This document shows positions 1,210 to 62,670 of a stretch of DNA of 64,000 nt, one piece after another (the stretch's first letter is position 1; each line of letters begins with the position of its first letter). A program made the position numbers and the translations under genes. Origin of the DNA: Aquabacterium sp. OR-4 (GTDB lineage Bacteria; Pseudomonadota; Gammaproteobacteria; Burkholderiales; Burkholderiaceae_C). The notes beneath the pieces were generated by a model that saw only the letters and a program-made list of their open reading frames with translations, was not told where the DNA came from and ran no database searches. The DNA lies in contig NZ_JAOCQD020000003.1 in the NCBI RefSeq assembly GCF_025290835.2, forward strand, positions 434,001 through 498,000, read 5' to 3'.

Positions 1210-2364
1210 ATGCCCTCGCCCAAAGCCCTGCGCGTGTGGTCGTGGCTGCACACCTGGAGCAGCCTGGTCTGCACCGTGTTCATGCTGCTGCTGTGCCTGA
1301 CCGGTCTGCCGCTGATCTTTCATCACGAGATCGAGCACCTCAGCGGTGACGAGGTGGAACTGCCCGCGCTGGCCCACAGCGGCCCGCCGGCCAGCTTCGA
1401 CACGGTGCTGGCCGCGGCGCGCGCCAAGTACCCGCAGCGCGTGCTGCAGTACGCCTCGGCCGACGAGGAGAACCCGCTGCTGTGGCATGTGACGCTGACG
1501 CCCACGCCGGCCCCCACCGACGACTACAAGTCGCTTGCCGTGGATGGCCGCAACGCCCAGGTGCTGCGCGACGCGCGCACCAGCGAAGGCTTCATGTACT
1601 GGATGCTGCGCCTGCACGTCGACCTGTTTGCCGATCTGCCCGGCAAGCTGTTCCTGGGCTTCATGGGCCTGCTGCTGGTGATCGCCATCGTCTCGGGCGT
1701 GGTGCTGTACGCGCCCTTCATGCGCAAGCTCGAGTTCGGCGCGGTGCGCCGCGACCGCTCGCCGCGCCTGAAGTGGCTGGACCTGCACAACCTGCTGGGC
1801 ATCGTGACCCTGGTGTGGGCGCTGGTGGTGGGCTTCACCGGCGTGATCAACACCTGGACCGACCTGCTGGTGAAGTACTGGCAGTACAGCGAGCTGAGCG
1901 CGCTGCTGGCGCCCTACCAGGGCCAGGCCCTGGTGGCCGAGGCCGAGCGCGCGCCGATGCAGGCCGCACTCGATGCCGCGCGCGCCCACACGCCCGACAA
2001 GCGCATGGCCTTCGCGGCGTTTCCGGGCACCGCCTTCTCCAGCCCGCACCATGTCACCTTCTTCATGCAGGGCAATACGCCGCTCACCTCCAAGCTGATG
2101 CAGCCGGTGCTGGTGGATGCGCGCACCGCCAAGGTCACGGCCTCGCCCCAGCTGCCCTGGTACCTGACCGCCCTGCTGCTGTCGCAGCCGCTGCACTTTG
2201 GCGACTACGGCGGCCTGCCGATGAAGCTGCTGTGGGCCTTGCTCGACATCGCCACCCTGGTGGTGCTGGGCAGCGGCCTGTACCTGTGGGTTCGCCGCCG
2301 CGCCGACCAGAAGCAGGCGGCCGTTCAGTCACCGGACACCGGGCTCAGCTCGGCGGCGGGCTGA
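1210..2364 (+). CDS. PepSY-associated transmembrane protein (PiuB-like)
   Basis: A 384-residue inner-membrane protein. The N-terminal helix (about 10-40, with SWLHTWSSLVCTVFMLLLC) carries the family's conserved histidine, and a periplasmic PepSY-type region follows. Further helices lie near 145-170, 195-215 and 335-360, and the tail is basic. This family is commonly linked to TonB siderophore receptors and proposed to act in reduction or release of siderophore iron. It follows the 56-residue membrane gene and is divergent from the receptor, consistent with iron uptake. The exact reaction is unknown. Confidence 0.85.
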   Translation: MPSPKALRVWSWLHTWSSLVCTVFMLLLCLTGLPLIFHHEIEHLSGDEVELPALAHSGPPASFDTVLAAARAKYPQRVLQYASADEENPLLWHVTLTPTPAPTDDYKSLAVDGRNAQVLRDARTSEGFMYWMLRLHVDLFADLPGKLFLGFMGLLLVIAIVSGVVLYAPFMRKLEFGAVRRDRSPRLKWLDLHNLLGIVTLVWALVVGFTGVINTWTDLLVKYWQYSELSALLAPYQGQALVAEAERAPMQAALDAARAHTPDKRMAFAAFPGTAFSSPHHVTFFMQGNTPLTSKLMQPVLVDARTAKVTASPQLPWYLTALLLSQPLHFGDYGGLPMKLLWALLDIATLVVLGSGLYLWVRRRADQKQAAVQSPDTGLSSAAG

Positions 2365-2471
2365 GTTGGCGCCCCCAACGTCGCTGCGCTCCGGCCCCCC
2401 GAGGGGGCCCTCGGCCCCTTGGGGCGGCCCGGCGGGGCTGAGCCGGCCGCGGTGCGTGCCCGCAGTGCGTC
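2365..2471. repeat. GC-rich dispersed repeat with hairpins between convergent genes
   Basis: The 107-bp gap between the convergent PepSY and xylulokinase genes contains two back-to-back hairpins. The first is GGCCCCC (2393-2399) with GGGGGCC (2403-2409); the second is the weaker GGCCCC-TT-GGGGC just after it. They could act as a bidirectional terminator, though no T-run follows. On the minus strand 2416-2436 reads CCGCCGGGCCGCCCCAAGGG plus one base, identical over 21 bp to 59038-59058 inside a linker ORF before fhcA. This marks a dispersed repeat family. Confidence 0.7.
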
Positions 2472-3965
<1,494 letters not shown>

Positions 3966-43545: not shown

Positions 43546-44585
43546 CCGCCCCCCGCCCCACCCACCCCTCCCAGGCCACCGAGGCCGGCCCCCACGCCGT
43601 GCCGCAGCCGGCGCCCAGCGTCAACGCGCTGGCGCGCCCGGCGCTGGCGCGGCTGCTGGACCAGGCCGATGCCCTGCGCGTGCAGGTGGCGCCCGGGCCT
43701 TCGGGCGTGTGCCTGGTGGATGCCGGCATCGCCTGCCGCGGCAGCGTCGAGGCCGGCCTGCTGATTGCCGAGATCTGCCTGGGGGGCCTGGGCCAGGTGC
43801 GGCTGCGCGCCGATGGTCACGCGGCCTGGCCCGGCTGGGTCGAGGTCAACAGCGCCCAGCCGGTGCTGGCCTGCCTGGGCAGCCAGTACGCCGGCTGGAG
43901 CCTGGCCGCCAGCAAGGACGAAACCGGCGGCCGCAGGTTCTTCTCGCTGGGCTCGGGGCCGGCCCGCGCGCTGGCCGCCAAGGAGCCGCTGTTTGCCGAG
44001 CTGGGCTACCGCGACCGGGCCGATGCCGGCGTGCTGGTGCTCGAGGTCGACCGCCTGCCGCCGCCGGTGATCGTGGACAAGCTGCTGCGCGACTGCGCGC
44101 TGCCGGCCAGCGCGCTGACGCTGATCCTCACCCCCACCACCAGCCTGGCCGGCATCACCCAGGTGGTGGCCCGCGTGCTGGAGGTGGCGCTGCACAAGGC
44201 CCACCAACTGGGCTTTGCGCTGGCCGACATCGTCAGCGGCTCGGCCACCGCGCCGCTGCCGGCGCCCTGTGCCGACGGCGTGATGGCCATGGGCCGCAGC
44301 AACGACGCCATCCTCTACGGCGGACGCGTGCACCTGACGGTGAGCGGCAGCGATGCCGCGGCACGCGACCTGGCGGCCCGCCTGCCGTCGTGCAACTCGG
44401 CCGCGCATGGCCGCTCGTTTGCCGAGATATTCAGCGCCGCCGACCACGACTTCTACAAGATCGACGGCGCGCTGTTTGCGCCGGCCCAGGTGTGGGTCAG
44501 CAACCTCGACAGCGGCAACACCTGGCAGGGCGGCGGCACCCGCCTGGATCTGCTGCAAAGCCTGTGGCTGGGGGCCGGCCAGTGA
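43542..44585 (+). CDS. mch: methenyl-tetrahydromethanopterin cyclohydrolase
   Basis: A 347-residue cytosolic enzyme that hydrolyses methenyl-H4MPT to formyl-H4MPT. Family blocks: SVNALARPALARLLDQADALRV (short form SVNALARPA), DAGIACRGSVEAG, LGSQYAGWSLAASK, LGSGPARALAAKEPLF, SVNVVP-like TTSLAGITQVVARVLEVALHK (core TSLAGITQVVAR), and MGRSNDAILYGGRV. An N-terminal extension of about 20 residues is present. The ATG overlaps the preceding stop, and the next gene starts on its own stop (GTGA), so translation is coupled. The reaction follows MtdB and precedes FhcD. Confidence 0.95.
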   Translation: MTAPRPTHPSQATEAGPHAVPQPAPSVNALARPALARLLDQADALRVQVAPGPSGVCLVDAGIACRGSVEAGLLIAEICLGGLGQVRLRADGHAAWPGWVEVNSAQPVLACLGSQYAGWSLAASKDETGGRRFFSLGSGPARALAAKEPLFAELGYRDRADAGVLVLEVDRLPPPVIVDKLLRDCALPASALTLILTPTTSLAGITQVVARVLEVALHKAHQLGFALADIVSGSATAPLPAPCADGVMAMGRSNDAILYGGRVHLTVSGSDAAARDLAARLPSCNSAAHGRSFAEIFSAADHDFYKIDGALFAPAQVWVSNLDSGNTWQGGGTRLDLLQSLWLGAGQ

Positions 44586-45538
44586 GCGGCCCGCGCATCG
44601 CGCTGCTGGCCGACGAGCGCGGCTGGCACACCCGCCAGCTGCAGGCCGCGCTGCGTGCGCGCGGCGCCAGCGGCCACTGCGTGGACCTGGCCGACTGCCA
44701 CATCGACACCACGGCCAGCCGCCACGGCCTGGTTCTGCCGGGCTTTGGCCGCGGCCTGCCCGATGCGGCCCTGGTGCGCGGCATTGCCGGCGGCAGCTTC
44801 GAGCAGGTGACCAAGCGCCTGGGCGTGCTGCACGCGCTGCGCGAGCTGGGCGTGCCGGTCTACAACGACGCCCGGGCCATCGAGCGCAGCGTCGACAAGT
44901 CGATGACCAGCCTGCTGCTGCATGCGGCCGGCATTCCCGGCCCGGCGACCTGGGCCACCGAGTCGCAGGCCCAGGCCCAGCGCATCACGATGCGCGAGGC
45001 CGCGCGCGGCCATGCGCTGGTGCTCAAGCCGCTGTTCGGCTCGCAGGGCCATGGCCTGCAGCGGGTGGGCCAGGTGGACGGCGTGTTCCAGCCGGTGCCC
45101 GAGCTGGCCACGGCCTATGGCGGCCTGGCCTATCTGCAGCGCTACGTGCCGCCGCTCGAGGAGCCGGGCTTCGACTGGCGGGTGCTGGTGGTGGGCGGGC
45201 GGGCGGTGGCGGCGATGCGGCGGGTCAGCCGGCACTGGGTGCACAACATCGCGCAGGGCGCCCAGGCCATGCCGGCGGTGCTGACCCCGGCTCTGGCCGA
45301 GCTGGCCGAGCGCAGCACCCAGGCGCTGGGGCTCGATTACGCCGGCATCGACCTGCTGCCCGCCGCCCGCGGCGCACCGCTGCAGGTGATCGAGGCCAAT
45401 GGCGTGGCCGCCTGGCAGGGCCTGCAGCGCGTCACCGGCTTCAACATCGCCCGCGTGCTGGTCGACGACCTGCTGGACCGCCGCCTGGCCGGCGCGCGCG
45501 CGCGGTGCCCGGTGCCGCAGCTGGCGCCAGGGGCATGA
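44582..45538 (+). CDS. RimK-like ATP-grasp ligase (orf17-type)
   Basis: A 318-residue protein from GTG 44582, overlapping the mch stop. It has the RimK/ATP-grasp pattern: VDKSMTSLLLHAAGIPGPATW (core SLLLHAAGIP), LVLKPLFGSQGHGLQRVG (about 142-158), FDWRVLVVGGRAVAAMRR, and the metal site VIEANGVAAWQGLQ (about 277-290). This is the clade of alpha-L-glutamate ligases such as MptN. Methylotroph H4MPT clusters carry such a gene (orf17). A cofactor side-chain ligase role is likely but not proved. Its stop overlaps the ATG of the linker ORF at 45535. Confidence 0.78.
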   Translation: MSGPRIALLADERGWHTRQLQAALRARGASGHCVDLADCHIDTTASRHGLVLPGFGRGLPDAALVRGIAGGSFEQVTKRLGVLHALRELGVPVYNDARAIERSVDKSMTSLLLHAAGIPGPATWATESQAQAQRITMREAARGHALVLKPLFGSQGHGLQRVGQVDGVFQPVPELATAYGGLAYLQRYVPPLEEPGFDWRVLVVGGRAVAAMRRVSRHWVHNIAQGAQAMPAVLTPALAELAERSTQALGLDYAGIDLLPAARGAPLQVIEANGVAAWQGLQRVTGFNIARVLVDDLLDRRLAGARARCPVPQLAPGA

Positions 45539-45600
45539 GCGCGCCGCGTCGCGCCCAGGCGCGCACCCCTGAGCGCGCAGCGCCGGGGGGCGTCCAGTGA
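45535..45600 (+). other. 21-codon overlapping linker ORF (repeat family member)
   Basis: The ATG overlaps the preceding gene's stop (ATGA), and its TGA overlaps the next gene's GTG start (GTGA). It encodes 21 residues starting MSAP and ending PGGVQ. The same length, start (MSA) and end (GGVQ) occur at 61748-61813. It is probably a translational bridge made by a dispersed repeat; a functional peptide is not evident. Confidence 0.55.
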
Positions 45601-46661
45601 TCCGCACGGCCGGCATCCGCGACGCCTTCGTGCAGGCCTGCGCGCTGGATGTGGCGGTGCGCAAGCCCGGCAATGTGAGCCACGCCTCACCGGGCCACGG
45701 CATGCAGGCGGCGCAGTTCGAGGCCAGCGCCGAGGCCGCCGCGGGCCCGCTGTGCCGTGCCGGGGCCAGCGTGGGCCAGCGCATCGTGACGGCCCAGGCG
45801 GCCTCGTGGCGGGCGGCCGGCTGCAATACCAATCTCGGCATCGTGCTGCTGTGCGCGCCACTGGCGGCGGCCGCTGAGCAATGTCTGGCGGCGGCCGCTG
45901 AGCAAAGTCTGGCCGCGGCCGCCGAACACGGCCTCGCCGCGGCGGCACGGCCACCCTGGGCCGGCGCGGCCGCGCCGGCGGTGGCCCAGCCACCGCCGCA
46001 GCCGCTGCAGCCAGCCGGCCTGCGCGCGGCGCTGCAGCAGGTGCTGGGCGCGCTCGACCGCCACGACGCACAGGCCGCCTTCACGGCCATTGCCGCCGCG
46101 CAGCCGGGCGGCCTGGGCGAGGCACCCACGCAGGATGTGCACGGCCCGGCCACGCTGGGCCTGCGCGCCGCCATGGCCCTGGCCGCCGAGCGCGACCGCA
46201 TCGCGCGCCAGTACCGCGACGGCTTTGCCGACCTGTTCGACACCGCGCTGCCGGCCTGGGCCGCAGCCTGCGGTGGCCAGCCGCTGGCGCCACCGCCGTG
46301 GGCCGGGCCGGGTGGCGACGCGGCGGGCCACCGCGCCGTGCTGCGCCTTTACCTGGCGCTGCTGGCGCGCTGGCCCGATTCACACATTGTGCGAAAGCAC
46401 GGCGAGGCCGTGGCACACACTGTCATGGCGCTGGCGCAGGGCTGGCAGCGGCGTGCGGCCAGCGACGACACCGCCGCACTGGCCTGCGAACTGGCCCAGT
46501 GGGACCAGAGCCTCAAGCACCAGGGCCTGAACCCCGGCACCACGGCCGATTTGACCGTGGCAACCCTGATGCTGGCGGCCTTGATCCACCCTGCGCCGGG
46601 CCCTGGCCCGCAAGCGGCCGACAGCAGCACGCGTCGCCTGCGTGCATGGCACGGAACGTGA
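45597..46661 (+). CDS. CitG/MdcB-like protein (triphosphoribosyl-dephospho-CoA synthase family)
   Basis: A 354-residue protein from GTG 45597. Family motifs: VRKPGNVSHASPGHGM (about 20-35), GCNTNLGIVLLCAPLAAA (about 78), DSHIVRKHGEAVA (about 262), and LNPGTTADLTVATLM (about 318). CitG enzymes use ATP and dephospho-CoA to build a triphosphoribosyl group; in methylotroph H4MPT clusters (orf19-type) the homologue is thought to act in cofactor synthesis. An Ala-Glu repeat insertion sits near 90-115. It is followed 78 bp later by fae. Confidence 0.8.
   Translation: MIRTAGIRDAFVQACALDVAVRKPGNVSHASPGHGMQAAQFEASAEAAAGPLCRAGASVGQRIVTAQAASWRAAGCNTNLGIVLLCAPLAAAAEQCLAAAAEQSLAAAAEHGLAAAARPPWAGAAAPAVAQPPPQPLQPAGLRAALQQVLGALDRHDAQAAFTAIAAAQPGGLGEAPTQDVHGPATLGLRAAMALAAERDRIARQYRDGFADLFDTALPAWAAACGGQPLAPPPWAGPGGDAAGHRAVLRLYLALLARWPDSHIVRKHGEAVAHTVMALAQGWQRRAASDDTAALACELAQWDQSLKHQGLNPGTTADLTVATLMLAALIHPAPGPGPQAADSSTRRLRAWHGT
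45861..45944 (+). repeat. 24-bp tandem repeat in the CitG-like gene
   Basis: Three and a half 24-bp units beginning CTGGCGGCGGCCGCTGAGCA encode Leu-Ala-Ala-Ala-Ala-Glu-Gln-Cys/Ser. The first two units differ at one base, so the duplication is recent. It forms an in-frame helical or linker expansion. Confidence 0.85.
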
Positions 46662-57431: not shown

Positions 57432-57590
57432 GTTTTTGGCGGCTGGCGGCGGGGGCGGCCCGGGCGGTGAACGGCGGGACCGGGCGTGGCAGCCGGATGC
57501 GACAGCGGTGGCGACAGCGGTGGCGACAGCGGTGGCAACAAGGGGGCCGACACAACCGGCCGCCGGGGCGCGCAGCCGGGCGCGGCGCAA

Positions 57591-57605
57591 TGGCATGTGG
57601 ATTGC
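57591..57605 (+). promoter_or_regulatory. sigma-54 promoter-like element before fhcB
   Basis: TGGCATG-TGGA-TTGC matches TGGCACG-N4-TTGC at 10 of 11 fixed positions, with correct GG to GC spacing. The transcription start would fall near 57617, only about 4 nt before the fhcB ATG and after its ribosome site. Either the mRNA is nearly leaderless, or the match is chance. Confidence 0.35.
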
Positions 57606-57620
57606 GAGGTGGGGCCCTGC

Positions 57621-59036
57621 ATGAGCCTTGCCGCCAGCCCTCACTCGCTGCCCCCGGAGCCGTCCAGGCCGCTCTGGACCTGCCCGTTCTGCCCGCTGCT
57701 GTGCGACGAGGTCGACCCGGCGCAACCCGCCGCCGCCGACTGCGCGCTGCTGCAGCAGCGCCTGGCCGAGGTGCTGGCCACGCCCGAGGCCGAGGCCGGC
57801 GCGGCGGCCTGGGTGGCCGGCCAGCCCTGCGATCTGGCCACCGCCGTGGCGGCCGCCGCTGCCCACCTGGCCAACAGCCGCCAGCCGCTGCTGGCCGGCA
57901 TGGGCACCGATGTGGCCGGGGCCCGTGCGCTGTACCGCCTGGCGGCACACACCGGCGCCATCTGCGACGCCGCGCATGGCGAGTCGCTGATGCAGTCCCA
58001 GCGCGCGCTGCAAGACCATGGCGGCTACAGCAGCACCCTGGGCGAGCTGCGCGAGCGCGCCGACCTGATCGTCTTCGTGGGCGGGCTGCAGCGAGACCTG
58101 GCGCCGCGGCTGTGGCGCCGCTGCGGCATCGGCCAGCCGATCGGCGTGGCGCCGGCGCTGCACCGCCACATCGTGCTGCTGGGCCCGGCCGAAGGCGACC
58201 TGGCGCTGTTGCAGGGCCTGCCGCACACCCGCGTGAGCAGCCTGCCGCTGCACGGCGGTTTGCCGGCGCTGCTGGCGCAACTGGCGATGCTGGTGCGCAG
58301 CCAGCCGCAGCCGGCGGCCGCGGCGCAGGATGCCGATGCGCCGCCTGCGTCACCCGACACCCCTGACACCTCGGACACCCCCGACACCCCCGACACCCCC
58401 GACACCCCCGACCACGCCGCACTGGCCCGGCTGGCCGCGCAGCTGCACGGCGCACGTTACGCCGTGTTCGTGGGTGCCAGCGCGCGCCTGCCGGCGCATG
58501 GCGCGCTGCTGATCGAGCAGGTGCAGCGCCTGGTCGGCGAGCTCAACCGCCGTGGCCGCGCGGCCAGTCTGTGGCTGGGCGGCAGCGGCGGCACCGGCAC
58601 CGCCAACCAGGTGTTCACCTGGCTGTCGGGCCTGCCCTTGCGCAGCCGCGCCGGGCCGGCGGGCCTGGAGCATTCGCCGCAGCGCTTTGCCAGCGCCCGG
58701 CTGCTGGCCGATGGCGCGGTGGACGCGCTGCTGTGGGTGTCGAGCCTGGACGTCACGGCCCAGGCGCCACTGCCGCCCGCGGGCCAGGCGCTGCCCTGCA
58801 TCTACCTGGCCCCCCCGGCGCTGGCGCCGCGCCAGGCGATGGCACCGCAGGCCATCTACATCCCGGTGGCCATGCCGGGCATCGACAGCGCCGGCCACCT
58901 GCTGCGCACCGACGGCACGGTGGTCAAGCCGCTGTTCGCCTTGCGCCCCAGCCGCCTGCCCGGCGTGGCCGAAGTGGCCTCGCGGCTGCTTGACGCCGTG
59001 CTGCGGCAGCGCGCCATGGCGGGGGTGGCGGCATGA
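57621..59036 (+). CDS. fhcB: formyltransferase/hydrolase complex subunit B
   Basis: A 471-residue subunit homologous to formylmethanofuran dehydrogenase subunit B but without the metal-cofactor role. The N-terminal WTCPFCPLLCDEV keeps the cysteine group. MGTDVAGARALYRLAAHTGAI, GGYSSTLGELRERADLIVFVG (core GELRERADLIVFVG), GGTGTANQVFTWLSGLP and AIYIPVAMPGIDSAGHLLRTDG are family blocks. A Pro-Asp-Thr repeat lies near 245-265. ATG 57621 has a GAGGTGG ribosome site; an earlier GTG at 57486 stays in frame. First of fhcB-A-D-C. Confidence 0.93.
   Translation: MSLAASPHSLPPEPSRPLWTCPFCPLLCDEVDPAQPAAADCALLQQRLAEVLATPEAEAGAAAWVAGQPCDLATAVAAAAAHLANSRQPLLAGMGTDVAGARALYRLAAHTGAICDAAHGESLMQSQRALQDHGGYSSTLGELRERADLIVFVGGLQRDLAPRLWRRCGIGQPIGVAPALHRHIVLLGPAEGDLALLQGLPHTRVSSLPLHGGLPALLAQLAMLVRSQPQPAAAAQDADAPPASPDTPDTSDTPDTPDTPDTPDHAALARLAAQLHGARYAVFVGASARLPAHGALLIEQVQRLVGELNRRGRAASLWLGGSGGTGTANQVFTWLSGLPLRSRAGPAGLEHSPQRFASARLLADGAVDALLWVSSLDVTAQAPLPPAGQALPCIYLAPPALAPRQAMAPQAIYIPVAMPGIDSAGHLLRTDGTVVKPLFALRPSRLPGVAEVASRLLDAVLRQRAMAGVAA
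58353..58411 (+). repeat. 9-bp tandem repeat in fhcB
   Basis: About six to seven 9-bp units (CCCGACACC and variants) encode Pro-Asp-Thr repeats, placed between two conserved domains of FhcB. Four consecutive units are identical, so slippage is likely recent. Confidence 0.85.
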
Positions 59037-59116
59037 GCCCGCCGGGCCGCCCCAAGGGCGAATCCCGACAGGCGCAGCCTGGCGGTGCCAAAGTGCACCC
59101 GCGGTGCCACCGATGA
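59033..59116 (+). other. 27-codon overlapping linker ORF (repeat family member)
   Basis: The ATG overlaps the fhcB stop (ATGA) and the TGA overlaps the fhcA ATG (ATGA). It encodes MSPPGRPKGESRQAQPGG and nine more residues. Bases 59038-59058 are identical over 21 bp to the complement of 2416-2436, and the stretch aligns with 61748-61813. Probably a repeat that keeps ribosomes translating between fhcB and fhcA. Confidence 0.6.
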
Positions 59117-60816
59117 GCAGCGTGCGCCTGAGCGGCGGCCGCGTGATCGACCCCACGCAGGCGCTCGACGACCGCGTGATGGACCTGGTGCTGCGCGATG
59201 GCCGCATGGCCGCGGCCGACTACGCCGGGCCGGTGACCACCACGCTCGACGCCAGCGGCTGCGTGATCATGGCCGGCGGCATCGACATGCACACCCACAT
59301 CGGCGGTGGCAAGGTCAACCTGGCGCGCATGCTGATGCCCGAGGATCACCGCGCCGGCCTCGATCCGCTGCCCCTGCCCGCGCCGCTGGCCGCGGCCACG
59401 CAGGCGCTCGAGCTGCCCTCGTGCGGCCGCTGCACGCCGGGCACCCTGGCCACCGGCTACCGCTATGTGGAGATGGGCTACACCGCGGCCTTCGAGCCGG
59501 CCATGGTGGCGGCCAATGCACGCCAGGCGCACCTCGAGATGGGCGACACGCCCATCCTCGACCACGGCGCCTACGTGATGCTGGGCAACGACGAGCTGAT
59601 GCTGCAGATGCTGGCCGAGCAGCAGGATTTCGGCCTGCTGCGCGACTACACCGCCTGGACCCTGCACGCCAGCAAGGCGCTGGGCGTGAAGGTGGTCAAC
59701 CCGGGCGGCATCTCGGCCTTCAAGTTCAACCAGCGCCGGCTCGACGTGGACGAGGCCCATGGCCACTGGGGGGTCTCGCCGCGGCGCGTGCTGCACACGC
59801 TGGCGCGCGCGCTGCACGACCTGGGCGTGCCGCACCCGCTGCACATCCACGGCAGCAACCTGGGCGTGGCCGGCAACATCGGCTCGACGCTGCAGACCAT
59901 CGCGGCGCTCGAAGGTCTGCCCGGCCACCTGACCCATGTGCAGTTCCACGCCTACGGCCGCGAGGGGCCGAAGAAGTTCTCGTCGGCCGCGCGCGAGCTG
60001 GCCGAGGCGGTCAACACCCATCCCAACATCAGCATCGATGTCGGCCAGATCATGTTCGGCCAGACCGTCACCGCCTCGGGCGACACCATGCGCCAGCATG
60101 CCCAGGCCGGCCTGGCCAGCCCGCGCAAGTGGATCGGTGGCGACATCGAGTGCGAGGCCGGCTGCGGCGTGGTGCCCTTCCGCTACCGCGAGCAGAGCTT
60201 CGTCAACGCGCTGCAGTGGGCCATCGGGCTCGAGATCTTCCTGCTGGTGCGCAACCCCTGGCAGGTGGTGCTCACCACCGACCATCCCAATGGCGGCCCG
60301 TTCACCAGCTATCCGCACCTGATCCGGCTGCTGATGGACCGCAGCTTCCGCAACGAGCAGCTGGCCCGCCTGCACCCCGACGTGGCCGCGCACAGCGCGC
60401 TGGGCGAGATCACGCGCGAGCTGACGCTGCGCGAGATCGCCATCATGACCCGCGCCGGCCCGGCGCGCCTGCTGGGCCTGCGCGACCGCGGCCACCTGGC
60501 GCCCGGCGCCGCGGCCGACATCGCGGTGTACCGCGACCAGCCCGACCGCGAGCGCATGTTCGCCACGCCGCAATGGGTGTTCAAGGACGGCGCGCTGGTG
60601 GCCGAGGCCGGCCGGCTGCTGGCCATGCCGGTGGGTGGCACGCACTTTGTCGAGCCCGAATACGACCGCGGCATCGAGCGGGTGCTGCGCCGCCACTGGG
60701 CGCGCCACGGCTCGGTGAACTTCGACCACCAGGCCATCGGCCGCGACGAGCTGTGCCACTGCGCCAACGGCGGCCGCCTGCTGCCGGCGGCGTGTTTCGA
60801 GCGCACACCGGCATGA
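59113..60816 (+). CDS. fhcA: formyltransferase/hydrolase complex subunit A
   Basis: A 567-residue amidohydrolase-fold subunit that hydrolyses formyl-methanofuran to formate. The metal-binding N-terminal IDMHTHIGGGKVNLARML (about 57-74), LHASKALGVKVVNPGGIS with the modified Lys, LHIHGSNLGVAGNI (about 236-249), THVQFHAYGREGPKKF and LTTDHPNGGPFTSYPHL (about 385-400) are present. The catalytic His and Asp residues are intact. Start overlaps the linker ORF; stop overlaps the fhcD start (60813). Confidence 0.95.
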   Translation: MSSVRLSGGRVIDPTQALDDRVMDLVLRDGRMAAADYAGPVTTTLDASGCVIMAGGIDMHTHIGGGKVNLARMLMPEDHRAGLDPLPLPAPLAAATQALELPSCGRCTPGTLATGYRYVEMGYTAAFEPAMVAANARQAHLEMGDTPILDHGAYVMLGNDELMLQMLAEQQDFGLLRDYTAWTLHASKALGVKVVNPGGISAFKFNQRRLDVDEAHGHWGVSPRRVLHTLARALHDLGVPHPLHIHGSNLGVAGNIGSTLQTIAALEGLPGHLTHVQFHAYGREGPKKFSSAARELAEAVNTHPNISIDVGQIMFGQTVTASGDTMRQHAQAGLASPRKWIGGDIECEAGCGVVPFRYREQSFVNALQWAIGLEIFLLVRNPWQVVLTTDHPNGGPFTSYPHLIRLLMDRSFRNEQLARLHPDVAAHSALGEITRELTLREIAIMTRAGPARLLGLRDRGHLAPGAAADIAVYRDQPDRERMFATPQWVFKDGALVAEAGRLLAMPVGGTHFVEPEYDRGIERVLRRHWARHGSVNFDHQAIGRDELCHCANGGRLLPAACFERTPA

Positions 60817-61751
60817 GCACGGCGCAACGCCCCGCGCTCGCGCTGCTGCGCAACGGCGTGCTGATCGACGACGGCTTTGCCGAGGCCTTTGCGATGAAGG
60901 CCACGCGGGTGATCGTCACCGCCCACAACGCGCAATGGGCGCGGCATGCGGCCGAGGCCGCCACCGGCTTGGCCACCTCGGTGATCGCCTGCGGCTGCGA
61001 GGCAGGCATCGAGCGCACGCTGGCGGCCGACGAAACCCCCGACGGCCGGCCGGGCGTGGCCCTGCTGCTGTTTGCGATGTCGGGCAAGGAGCTGGCCAAG
61101 CAGATCGAGCGCCGCATCGGCCAATGCGTGCTCACCTGCCCCACCACCGCGGCCTTTGCCGGCCTGGCCGAGGGCGAGCCGGTGGCGCTGGGCCGCAACC
61201 TGCGCTTTTTTGGCGATGGCTGGCAGATCGCCAAGCTGATCGACGGCCAGCGCTACTGGCGCATCCCGGTGATGGACGGCGAGTTCGTGGTGCAGGAGAG
61301 CACGCCGGTGATCAAGGCCGTGGGCGGCGGCAACCTGCTGCTGCTGGCCCGCGACACCGACTGCGCGTTGGCGGCGGCCGAGGCCGCGGTGGCCGCCATG
61401 CGCCGTCTGCCCAACGTGGTGATGCCTTTTCCGGGTGGCGTGGTGCGTTCGGGCTCCAAGGTGGGCAGCAAGTACCCGGCGCTGAGCGCGTCCACCAACG
61501 ATGCCTTCTGCCCCGGCCTGCGCGGCCTGGTGCCGCACAGCGAGATCGCTGCCGAGGTGCGCTGCGTGCTCGAGGTGGTGATCGACGGCCTCAGCGAGGC
61601 CGACGTGGCCGCGGCCATGCGCGCCGGCCTGCAGGCCGGCATCGCCATCGGCGCCGCCGGGGGCCTGCTGCGCATCTCGGCCGGCAACTATGGCGGCAAG
61701 CTGGGGCCCTACCACTTCCACCTGCACCGGCTGCTGGAGGACAGGGCATGA
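60813..61751 (+). CDS. fhcD: formylmethanofuran:tetrahydromethanopterin formyltransferase
   Basis: A 312-residue enzyme (Ftr) transferring the formyl group from formyl-H4MPT to methanofuran. Family blocks: LLRNGVLIDDGFAEAFAMKATR (core IDDGFAEAF), TSVIACGCEAGIER, RIGQCVLTCPTTAAFAG, RNLRFFGDGWQ, IPVMDGEFVVQE, FPGGVVRSGSKVGSKYP (about 210-226) and GKLGPYHFHLHRLL at the end. ATG overlaps the fhcA stop, and its stop overlaps the linker ORF ATG at 61748. Confidence 0.95.
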   Translation: MSTAQRPALALLRNGVLIDDGFAEAFAMKATRVIVTAHNAQWARHAAEAATGLATSVIACGCEAGIERTLAADETPDGRPGVALLLFAMSGKELAKQIERRIGQCVLTCPTTAAFAGLAEGEPVALGRNLRFFGDGWQIAKLIDGQRYWRIPVMDGEFVVQESTPVIKAVGGGNLLLLARDTDCALAAAEAAVAAMRRLPNVVMPFPGGVVRSGSKVGSKYPALSASTNDAFCPGLRGLVPHSEIAAEVRCVLEVVIDGLSEADVAAAMRAGLQAGIAIGAAGGLLRISAGNYGGKLGPYHFHLHRLLEDRA

Positions 61752-61813
61752 GCGCGCAGGGCCGCTCCCAAGCGCCAATCCTGCAGCGCGGAGCGCGGGG
61801 GGGCGTGCAGTGA
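61748..61813 (+). other. 21-codon overlapping linker ORF (repeat family member)
   Basis: The ATG overlaps the fhcD stop (ATGA) and the TGA overlaps the fhcC GTG (GTGA). It encodes 21 residues starting MSAQGRSQAP and ending RGGVQ. It matches the 45535-45600 ORF in length, MSA start and GGVQ end, and the 59033 ORF in its GGGCCGC-CCCAAG-GCGAATCC core. Confidence 0.6.
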
Positions 61814-62670
61814 GCGGCTGGCGTCTGGCCCTGCGGCGGCCGCCGCCGCTGCGCCTGGATCTGCGCGGCCTCACGCCCGCCGCGCTGGCCGGCCTGGGCC
61901 AGGCGCAGGTCGAGCGCTGGCCGCTGGGCCATGGCCGCGAGACGCTGGCGCTGGCCGAGTGTTTTGACGTGTCGGCGCAGCCCGACGATGGGCTGCTTTT
62001 CGAGGGCAACCTGTCGCGCTGCGACCACCTGGGCTGGGGCATGGACGGCGGCCGCATCCGGGTGCTTGGCCCGGTGGGCGATGGCGTGGGCACCGGCATG
62101 CGCGCCGGCGAGCTGCGGGTGGACGGCAACGCCGGCGACCTGGCCGCCTGCGAGATGGCCGGCGGCCTGCTGCACATCGGCGGCGATGTCGGCCACTTTG
62201 CCGCCAGCACCCTGCCCGGCAGCATCGACGGCATGCGCGGCGGCCTGCTGCGCATCGACGGCCATGCCGGCGACCGCCTGGCCGACCGCATGCGCCGCGG
62301 CACCGTGCTGCTGCGCGGCGATGCCGGCGCCTACGCCGCCTCGCGCCTGGTGGCCGGCACCGTGCTGCTGGGCGGCCGCGCCGGCGCGCAGGTGGGCTAT
62401 GGCATGCGGCGCGGCAGCGTGGTGTGCGCCGCCGGCCCGCAGGCCGTGACTGTGCCGGGCAGCTTTGTGCCGGCCGGCGCCGAGGTGCCGGTGTTCTGGG
62501 CCCTGCTGTCGCGCAGCCTGGCGCGCCTGGCCGGCCCGCAGCCCGACGCGCCCTGGCCCGAGCGCGCCTTGGCCGAGCACCCCTTCGCCGGCCTTGGCCG
62601 CCGGCCCATCCAGCGCCACCTGGGCGACCGTGCCCAGGGCGGCTTTGGCGAACTGATCCACCTGTGCTGA
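61810..62670 (+). CDS. fhcC: formyltransferase/hydrolase complex subunit C
   Basis: A 286-residue subunit related to formylmethanofuran dehydrogenase subunit C and the C-terminal beta-helix of glutamate synthase. Repeated Gly-rich strands read GDGVGTGMRAGELRVDGNAGD, GGLLHIGGDVGHFAAS, GLLRIDGHAGDRLADRMRRG and GTVLLGGRAGAQVGYGMRRG, with periodic GxxxG spacing. Starts at GTG 61810 on the linker ORF's stop. It is followed by the second fae-like gene after 20 bp. Confidence 0.93.
   Translation: MSGWRLALRRPPPLRLDLRGLTPAALAGLGQAQVERWPLGHGRETLALAECFDVSAQPDDGLLFEGNLSRCDHLGWGMDGGRIRVLGPVGDGVGTGMRAGELRVDGNAGDLAACEMAGGLLHIGGDVGHFAASTLPGSIDGMRGGLLRIDGHAGDRLADRMRRGTVLLRGDAGAYAASRLVAGTVLLGGRAGAQVGYGMRRGSVVCAAGPQAVTVPGSFVPAGAEVPVFWALLSRSLARLAGPQPDAPWPERALAEHPFAGLGRRPIQRHLGDRAQGGFGELIHLC

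Follow-up and report, generated by a model that had tools for sequence, protein, structure and literature searches.

Short mobile repeats on stop/start overlaps as candidate translational relays in Aquabacterium and related Burkholderiales

REP, BIME and REPIN repeats are short, hairpin-forming, situated 3′ of genes and found in arrays. Among miniature inverted-repeat transposable elements (MITEs), Chunjie reportedly inserts into an operon and leaves the operon structure undisturbed, to go by the title of a reference. Rickettsia palindromic elements are described in a review (PMC10969869) as entering genes without shifting the frame and being translated as a fusion, and the enterobacterial RU repeats, likewise MITEs, have open reading frames (ORFs) that fuse to genes, as the relevant part of PMC2759123 describes. 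Here we report repeats of about 60–62 bp that sit between genes, three of which form linker ORFs in a 64,000-nucleotide stretch of Aquabacterium sp. OR-4 (contig NZ_JAOCQD020000003.1, positions 434,001 to 498,000; “the window”), each beginning on the stop codon of one gene and ending on the start codon of the next. We believe that the linkers are probably non-autonomous mobile repeats that go into stop/start overlaps and are retained as long as translation remains coupled. Support comes from their exact position, from empty sites in relatives, from a target duplication, from covarying hairpin pairs and, in one of the two types (“A”), from a frame-specific avoidance of stop codons.

As far as the source describes them, Rickettsia palindromic elements are likewise small, dispersed, palindromic and frame-keeping, and the fusions formed by our type “B” repeats are similar. 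The linkers differ in sitting between cistrons on the stop/start overlap (of 244 leading copies, 5 fall within called genes), and type A stops and starts again instead of fusing, with a peptide that is not under selection. They resemble REP/BIME/REPIN repeats in being short, hairpin-forming, 3′ of genes and in arrays, but they begin on the stop codon, carry a frame and a Shine–Dalgarno (SD)-like motif, and sit inside operons; nor was an association with Y1_Tnp (RAYT) found in 21 genomes or in the 1.5-kb flanks scanned in the own genome. MITEs, including RU elements in the passages of PMC2759123 cited, are likewise non-autonomous and leave a target-site duplication, whereas the linkers are placed on the stop codon and, by inspection of the element consensus (start GCGCGCCGGGCC, end GGGTAGTCCAG), have no terminal inverted repeats. 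The GGGAATC-type repeats of Xanthomonas and Nostoc are heptamer arrays with proposed G-quadruplexes, and the descriptions of them consulted mention no linker ORF or target duplication. The codon geometry is identical to that of termination–reinitiation at ATGA/TGATG overlaps, as set out in the relevant parts of PMC6728339 and PMC10666635; what distinguishes the linkers from native gene pairs of this kind is an inserted repeat that adds an extra stop/start step. No description of the family was found among the papers listed by full-text searches, made also with core DNA and peptide strings; subscription papers and preprints lay outside the search.

The linkers of the window and their repeat family

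All three linkers (Table 1) open with an ATG overlapping the upstream TGA (the upstream genes end at 45538, 59036 and 61751) and close with a TGA overlapping the next start, GTG at 45597, ATG at 59113 and GTG at 61810; TGA 45536–45538 of the RimK/MptN-like gene, for instance, forms bases 2–4 of the first linker. They translate, each up to its stop, as MSAPRRAQARTPERAAPGGVQ (45535–45600, 21 aa), MSPPGRPKGESRQAQPGGAKVHPRCHR (59033–59116, 27 aa) and MSAQGRSQAPILQRGARGGVQ (61748–61813, 21 aa). The two 21-residue linkers are 75% identical over 89 nt, gap-free, and the one at 59033 is a lengthened relative of type B which ends on the next start. These coordinates, translations and double overlaps, together with a 21-bp match elsewhere in the window, formed the original prediction, and all were re-derived from the sequence. 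The match is between 59038–59058 and the reverse complement of 2416–2436, between the convergent genes 1210–2364 (+) and 2472–3965 (−); what was taken there for a far copy is a related, terminator-like repeat with only the core in common. The idea that every gene of the operon is kept coupled in this way holds for the stop/start geometry at the linkers and fails at fhcA/fhcD, a bare, linker-free ATGA overlap in the window.

Linker-like ORFs are not rare by chance. At 289 same-strand junctions of the own genome they follow 12 of 125 TGA stops preceded by C, which form no start codon, and 6 of 51 ATGA stops or, with bare overlaps and fusions subtracted, 12 of 100 and 6 of 12, three of the last six being those of the window. 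The three linkers are thus significant because of the repeat family to which they belong, where a single such ORF would not be.

The dispersed family that had been proposed is borne out by a clear excess of copies: its core, GGGCCGCN{0,1}CCCAAG, has 104 matches in the 6.63-Mb genome and 1 for a reversed-pattern control. This core is common to several repeats, of which the linkers are one group. A blastn search with 61730–61818 returned 16 places in the own genome at E<1e-4, the query included, and R1, a sequence-only model built on 13 own-genome type A copies, returned 33 at E<=0.1 (one copy split in two) and 24 at E<=1e-5. Across 21 genomes of the genus, the relatives partly fragmented, R1 at E<=1e-5 gives 0 to 32 matches per genome, with matches in 17 (32 in G018, 14 in G003) and none in G001 (61% complete), G005, G008 and G013. 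The similar elements in Burkholderiales, originally mentioned from recall, exist in several named genera: a pattern scan of named genomes found at least 120 stretches, the matches listed including Methylibium, Piscinibacter, Rubrivivax, Rhizobacter, Ideonella and Aquabacterium, and further Rhodoferax, Ramlibacter, Bordetella, Castellaniella and others. The family is patchy, since a near-identical exact pattern matched in just 4 of 300 genomes sampled across the order, our own included. Plasmids gave 0 records for type A and 4 for type B, 3 of them inspected; a phage search with type B gave 0 matches (type A was not searched there), and a scan of the window with Rfam gave 0 at gathering thresholds.

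Two types of linker can be told apart among the 326 distinct copies (155 A, 171 B) drawn from all fetched loci, 82 of which trail another in tandem, leaving 244 “leaders”; tandem, head-to-tail arrays are seen in both. Type A has 62 bp from ATG to next start and a 21-codon ORF, with the consensus MSAPGRSQARIPERAARRVVQ and stop, between an ATGA at the upstream stop and a GTGA or ATGA at the next start. Type B has 60 bp, mostly in frame with the next gene, and the consensus MSPPGRPKGEYRSAQHEGTPV. Among exact leaders that have A or G before the TGA and a gene on the same strand no more than 200 nt away, 61 of the 78 of type A end on the next start, 1 is fused and 16 behave otherwise, mostly as tandem relays or TGATG overlaps; of the 60 of type B, 35 are fusions, 19 stop on the next start and 6 do neither. 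The second start of type A is GTG in 75 of 106 copies, ATG in 29 and TTG in 2, a spectrum consistent with a base before the second TGA that would derive from the element. An SD-like motif precedes the second start in 93 of 106 type A and 61 of 64 type B copies, by a lax pattern without chance control.

Own-genome copies are also found at junctions which we take, from the protein sequences, to be xseB/ispA, livG/livF, btuC/btuD-like and MazF-like. The tie to tetrahydromethanopterin (H4MPT) genes drawn in the original prediction is thereby undone, and an H4MPT-specific role was rejected on account of these junctions. The livG/livF linker at G000 C1:1268520-1268611 (L111 / L044) has grown by 12-bp in-frame units with the frame intact. 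A type A linker at G000 C3:121938-121988 (L046) is fused in frame to a presumably GNAT-like gene and does not end on a start, and the linker at G000 C1:2221802-2221869 (L098) joins a short upstream gene to what, from its sequence, we assume to be a MazF-like gene. A second repeat, which shares the GGGCCGCnCCCAAG core, forms tandem arrays of 75–90 bp period (L001-L003, L017-L024, L054-L058), and several of its single copies (L016, L029, L030, L053) end with about GAGGGGC(A/T)GACATG on an apparent gene start, as if bearing a ribosome-binding site. One own-genome copy of it (L406:5972-6082) bridges an ATGA stop and the following start with an open linker ORF (offset 107).

Table 1. Linkers, neighbouring genes and a related repeat, in window coordinates. 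NCBIfam matches above cut-off extend to fae and mch.
Feature	Position	Strand	Details
Type A linker	45535..45600	+	62 bp ATG-to-start offset, 21-codon ORF; R1 55.7 bits; between MptN-like gene and weakly CitG-like gene
Type B-derived linker	59033..59116	+	80 bp offset, 27-codon ORF; R1 20.3 bits, partial; between fhcB-like gene and fhcA
Type A linker	61748..61813	+	62 bp offset, 21-codon ORF; R1 64.1 bits; between fhcD and fhcC
RimK/MptN-like ligase, upstream gene	44582..45538	+	NF040720 below cut-off, TIGR00768 above cut-off
Weak CitG-like gene, downstream	45597..46661	+	TIGR03125 below cut-off; GTG start overlaps linker TGA
Formylmethanofuran dehydrogenase subunit B-like (fhcB)	57486..59036	+	TIGR03129 below cut-off
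Formylmethanofuran dehydrogenase subunit A (fhcA)	59113..60816	+	TIGR03121 above cut-off; ATG overlaps linker TGA
Formylmethanofuran–H4MPT formyltransferase (fhcD)	60813..61751	+	NCBIfam above cut-off; bare ATGA overlap with fhcA
Formylmethanofuran dehydrogenase subunit C (fhcC)	61810..62670	+	TIGR03122 above cut-off; GTG overlaps linker TGA
Terminator-like repeat, related	2371..2436	−	Between convergent genes; 21-bp core common with 59038–59058

Placement, empty sites and movement

The element TGA is exactly the stop of the upstream same-strand gene in 174 of the 244 leaders, and in 20 of 23 in the own genome. The base before it is A in 149 of these 174 copies, compared with 29 of 129 control TGAGC sites on stop codons in the same loci (overlapping loci left unmerged) and, in 464 kb sampled from the own genome, with 55 of 333 TGA stops. 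ATGAGC was part of the seed in the model and blast searches, a possible bias to A; in the pattern set, free of that requirement, A precedes in 102 of 109 leaders, and 78 of the 109 are exact. TGAGC elsewhere in the same loci falls 129 times on stops, 156 times between genes and 1713 times in genes, the figures for the 464 kb being 112, 146 and 1099. Taken by themselves, same-strand junctions show hardly any enrichment (196 of the 244 leaders; 289 of 382 in the 464-kb sample) and were dropped as an argument. The expected bias to operon junctions shows in the sense of the element, which matches both neighbours in 190 of the 196 same-strand cases, and in its exact fit to the upstream stop.

The anchor appears to be the stop codon, and the relay the case in which that stop overlaps a start, because the leaders of G018 at stops preceded by C are all exact. 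Such placement, with no apparent retention filter at work, argues for some targeting of integration over survivor bias alone. Within G018, loci L129-L154 hold a type A subfamily with GCGCTTTGCGCGG, mostly at C-preceded stops and in several cases facing a convergent gene on the right; ATGAGC overlaps are the place of copies with GCGCGCAGCGCGG.

Empty sites were found in relatives at all five junctions compared. As fhcA is present in 3 of 21 genus genomes, the fhc comparison is among those three: fhcB/fhcA and fhcD/fhcC are bare ATGA overlaps in G012 and G016, and fhcA/fhcD, bare in the own genome and G016, has a linker of offset 92 in G012. At fhcD/fhcC, G016 reads gcATGAGCGGTTGGCGC, its fhcC orthologue starting ATGAGCGGTTGGCGC at the bare overlap, and the own genome reads gcATGAGC, then the element, then caGTGAGCGGCTGGCGT. 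The xseB/ispA junction has inserts at 4 of 17 readable loci (20 fetched), in the own genome (A), G006 (B, tandem), and G003 and G010 (other); 12 of the 13 without insert stop with ATGA and one with CTGA. At livG/livF, inserts occupy 3 of 15 readable loci out of 19 (from 13 genomes, second matches within a genome included), those of the own genome (A), G016 and G020 (other), and 12 are empty.

Additionally, the flanks bear the mark of a target-site duplication, which starts at the TGA and runs a few bases further. Over 90 pairs of type A flanks, deviations from the 5′ consensus are repeated in the 3′ flank 16 times where 6.6 are expected, a count reached in 0 of 2000 permutations, and over 40 type B pairs 6 times where 3.1 are expected (P 0.036). 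Two Comamonadaceae plasmid copies have flanking duplications of 11 and 12 bp, unlike each other. Empty sites and duplication together support the mobile-like nature suggested in the original prediction, and its expectation that the overlap is conserved agrees with the stop/start geometry recurring across genomes. On a Variovorax sp. SRS16 plasmid (L435), a type B-like linker lies at phnJ/phnK; PhnK is annotated there from the linker ATG, its first ~20 residues being repeat-derived.

Mobilisation as REP sequences by a Y1/RAYT (HUH) transposase would suit short, hairpin-forming repeats in head-to-tail arrays, and 13 of the 21 genus genomes have a Y1_Tnp match. Set against this, G018 and G003, with their 32 and 14 repeat matches, have none, G013 and G005 have two and one Y1_Tnp and no repeat copy, and the 1.5-kb flanks of the one Y1_Tnp in the own genome are free of linkers, those of other Y1_Tnp loci not having been scanned. 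HUH elements of the RAYT class are not expected to leave a target duplication, which counts against them as well. We hold this mode of movement to be very unlikely, and the candidate was rejected for want of any correlation of Y1_Tnp with copy number in the 21 genomes.

Reading frame, hairpins and rival explanations

Spacing matters for coupled genes: the authors of PMC10666635 conclude that 20 nt all but abolishes re-initiation, and with 38 nt its loss was 80–90% or complete in three E. coli pairs (other studies cited there differ). Because of this published effect, a 60-bp insert should uncouple an ATGA pair unless it is relayed. We propose that a hairpin-forming mobile repeat of Burkholderiales, ~60–62 bp plus the target duplicated from the TGA, would insert on a gene's stop codon, in most cases one that overlaps a start (ATGAGC). 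The duplicated TGA would restore both codons: the upstream gene would retain its stop, the old ATG would become the start of a mini-ORF inside the repeat, and the second TGA would overlap a new GTG or ATG start of the downstream gene. The 21-codon ORF of type A would end on this new start, and type B would mostly be read through, giving a 20-residue N-terminal extension. A re-initiating ribosome would then step from stop to start twice rather than once, probably assisted in most copies by the SD-like stretch before the second start, and insertions in overlaps would persist if it could still step through. Ribosomal translation of the linkers we infer from sequence evolution; selection for coupling as the reason for their persistence, and the mode of movement, we likewise infer.

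Applied to exact leaders with A or G before the TGA and a gene on the same strand no more than 250 nt away, a rule that follows either an overlapping stop/start or a fusion reaches the downstream gene in 76 of 78 cases for type A and in 58 of 61 for type B, and from a +1 start in none of the 78 or the 61. More telling are the 692 substitutions in type A, only 4 of which create an in-frame stop against 17.5–21 expected (0 of 1000 nulls as low, the lowest being 6–8), all 4 at column 61, adjoining the terminal TGA; frame 2 has no such depletion (3 vs 3.8). Since stops are avoided while synonymous and nonsynonymous changes (231 and 510) match the null (218 and 509), the frame matters and the peptide does not. 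A functional small peptide, which would likewise keep the ORF open, is for this reason scarcely credible: nonsynonymous changes in type A are as common as in the null, and the variable loop and covarying pair alter residues freely.

Six further inserts, found in relatives at the five junctions, all form ORFs that stay open between the upstream ATGA and a TGA lying on the following start, with offsets of 71, 71, 92, 110, 200 and 230. Orthologous copies of differing element type at a single junction occur but were kept out of the counts. Five are not standard A or B and the sixth is a type B tandem; the G012 insert has the 3′ end of type A, and that of G020 resembles the 5′ end of type B. The G010 xseB/ispA junction (L322:1253-1486) has a 77-codon linker ORF of in-frame tandem MYAPWACG-like units.

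Could the linker ORF be only a geometric by-product of TGA duplication, given a fixed 60–62 bp and GC-rich, stop-poor DNA, in a neutral REP-like repeat with no selection for translation? The unselected type A peptide fits this, as do the mostly open frame 2 of type A and the G018 copies at C-preceded stops and convergent ends. It is harder to reconcile with a stop avoidance confined to frame 0, with the other inserts, which all relay at offsets of 71, 71, 92, 110 and 230, and with the excess of A before the TGA over the control stops; we judge it unlikely.

Retention through coupling has its own difficulties, which we gather here. A +2 start joins the next gene at 70 of 78 type A and 21 of 61 type B junctions, and frame 2 is likewise open in 104 of 106 type A copies, so frame counts and openness alone are little proof. 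By the rule, two of the 78 junctions of type A and three of the 61 of type B are uncoupled. Type B stop avoidance is weak (3 vs 6.5–7.1 expected, P 0.05–0.06). Seventy of the 244 leaders are off the exact stop: 8 are within ~10 nt, 33 have a same-strand left gene that ends elsewhere, 20 an opposite-strand left neighbour, 5 are inside a called gene and 4 have no left gene. G018 has 14 of its 33 leaders at C-preceded stops, where no relay is needed; for six of the 14, the gene on the right is convergent. The three copies of the window show G-runs or no clear motif before the second start, without a clean GGAGG. Copies share ancestry, and the counts of stop avoidance, flanks and covariation are not of independent events. 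Gene calls came from a codon-bias caller made for this analysis, starts being least certain. Finally, no mobilising enzyme was found, a transposon with these element ends not having been searched for.

Compensatory changes favour hairpins in both types, as judged from the alignments. Type A pair 41–47 (GC 69, AT 28, CG 11, GT 4, TG 1) is paired in 113 of 115 copies against 74.7 when shuffled (maximum 83 of 200), and ranks first in mutual information among all column pairs, before 12–22 and 7–26; the consensus fold of the larger set has 7–26 and 41–47, and 12–22, absent there, is present in the first 13-sequence fold. Type B changes in a compensatory way at 39–47 (TA 37, GC 15, CG 14), 38–48 and 7–25. 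A further weakness of our reading is that the type A consensus, folded together with its flanks, has a minimum-energy structure other than the two-hairpin fold of the alignment.

Such pairs, in both types, and the retention of the SD-like motif (by the same lax, uncontrolled pattern) might also be expected of a regulatory RNA element, whose hairpins beside that motif would tune downstream translation or mRNA decay, with coupling secondary. This is compatible with a relay; as the prime explanation it seems to us unlikely. The proteins neighbouring own-genome copies are functionally unrelated by eye (no family search was made on them), hairpins are equally expected as a DNA mobility signal, and the minimum-energy fold of one consensus, the one at odds with the alignment, leaves four of the six SD bases largely unpaired.

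Meaning for packed operons

Returning to mobile repeats retained through coupled translation, a tentative extension would be that the class is aimed at stop codons, above all stop/start overlaps, and may act as a plug-in translational relay, able to enter packed operons and leave them unbroken, and giving the downstream gene a new start codon and ribosome-binding site and perhaps another protein ratio. An insertion into an overlap would be expected to break or uncouple genes; the repeats have come to lie in such overlaps again and again, at junctions shared between species, and the stop/start geometry was kept. Filled and empty junctions are natural before/after pairs for measuring the worth of termination–reinitiation, and they suggest a route by which a start may change from ATG to GTG or a protein gain an N-terminal extension. 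Annotation is affected too, PhnK of the Variovorax plasmid being an example. If integration truly targets stop codons, the enzyme responsible would be a useful tool.

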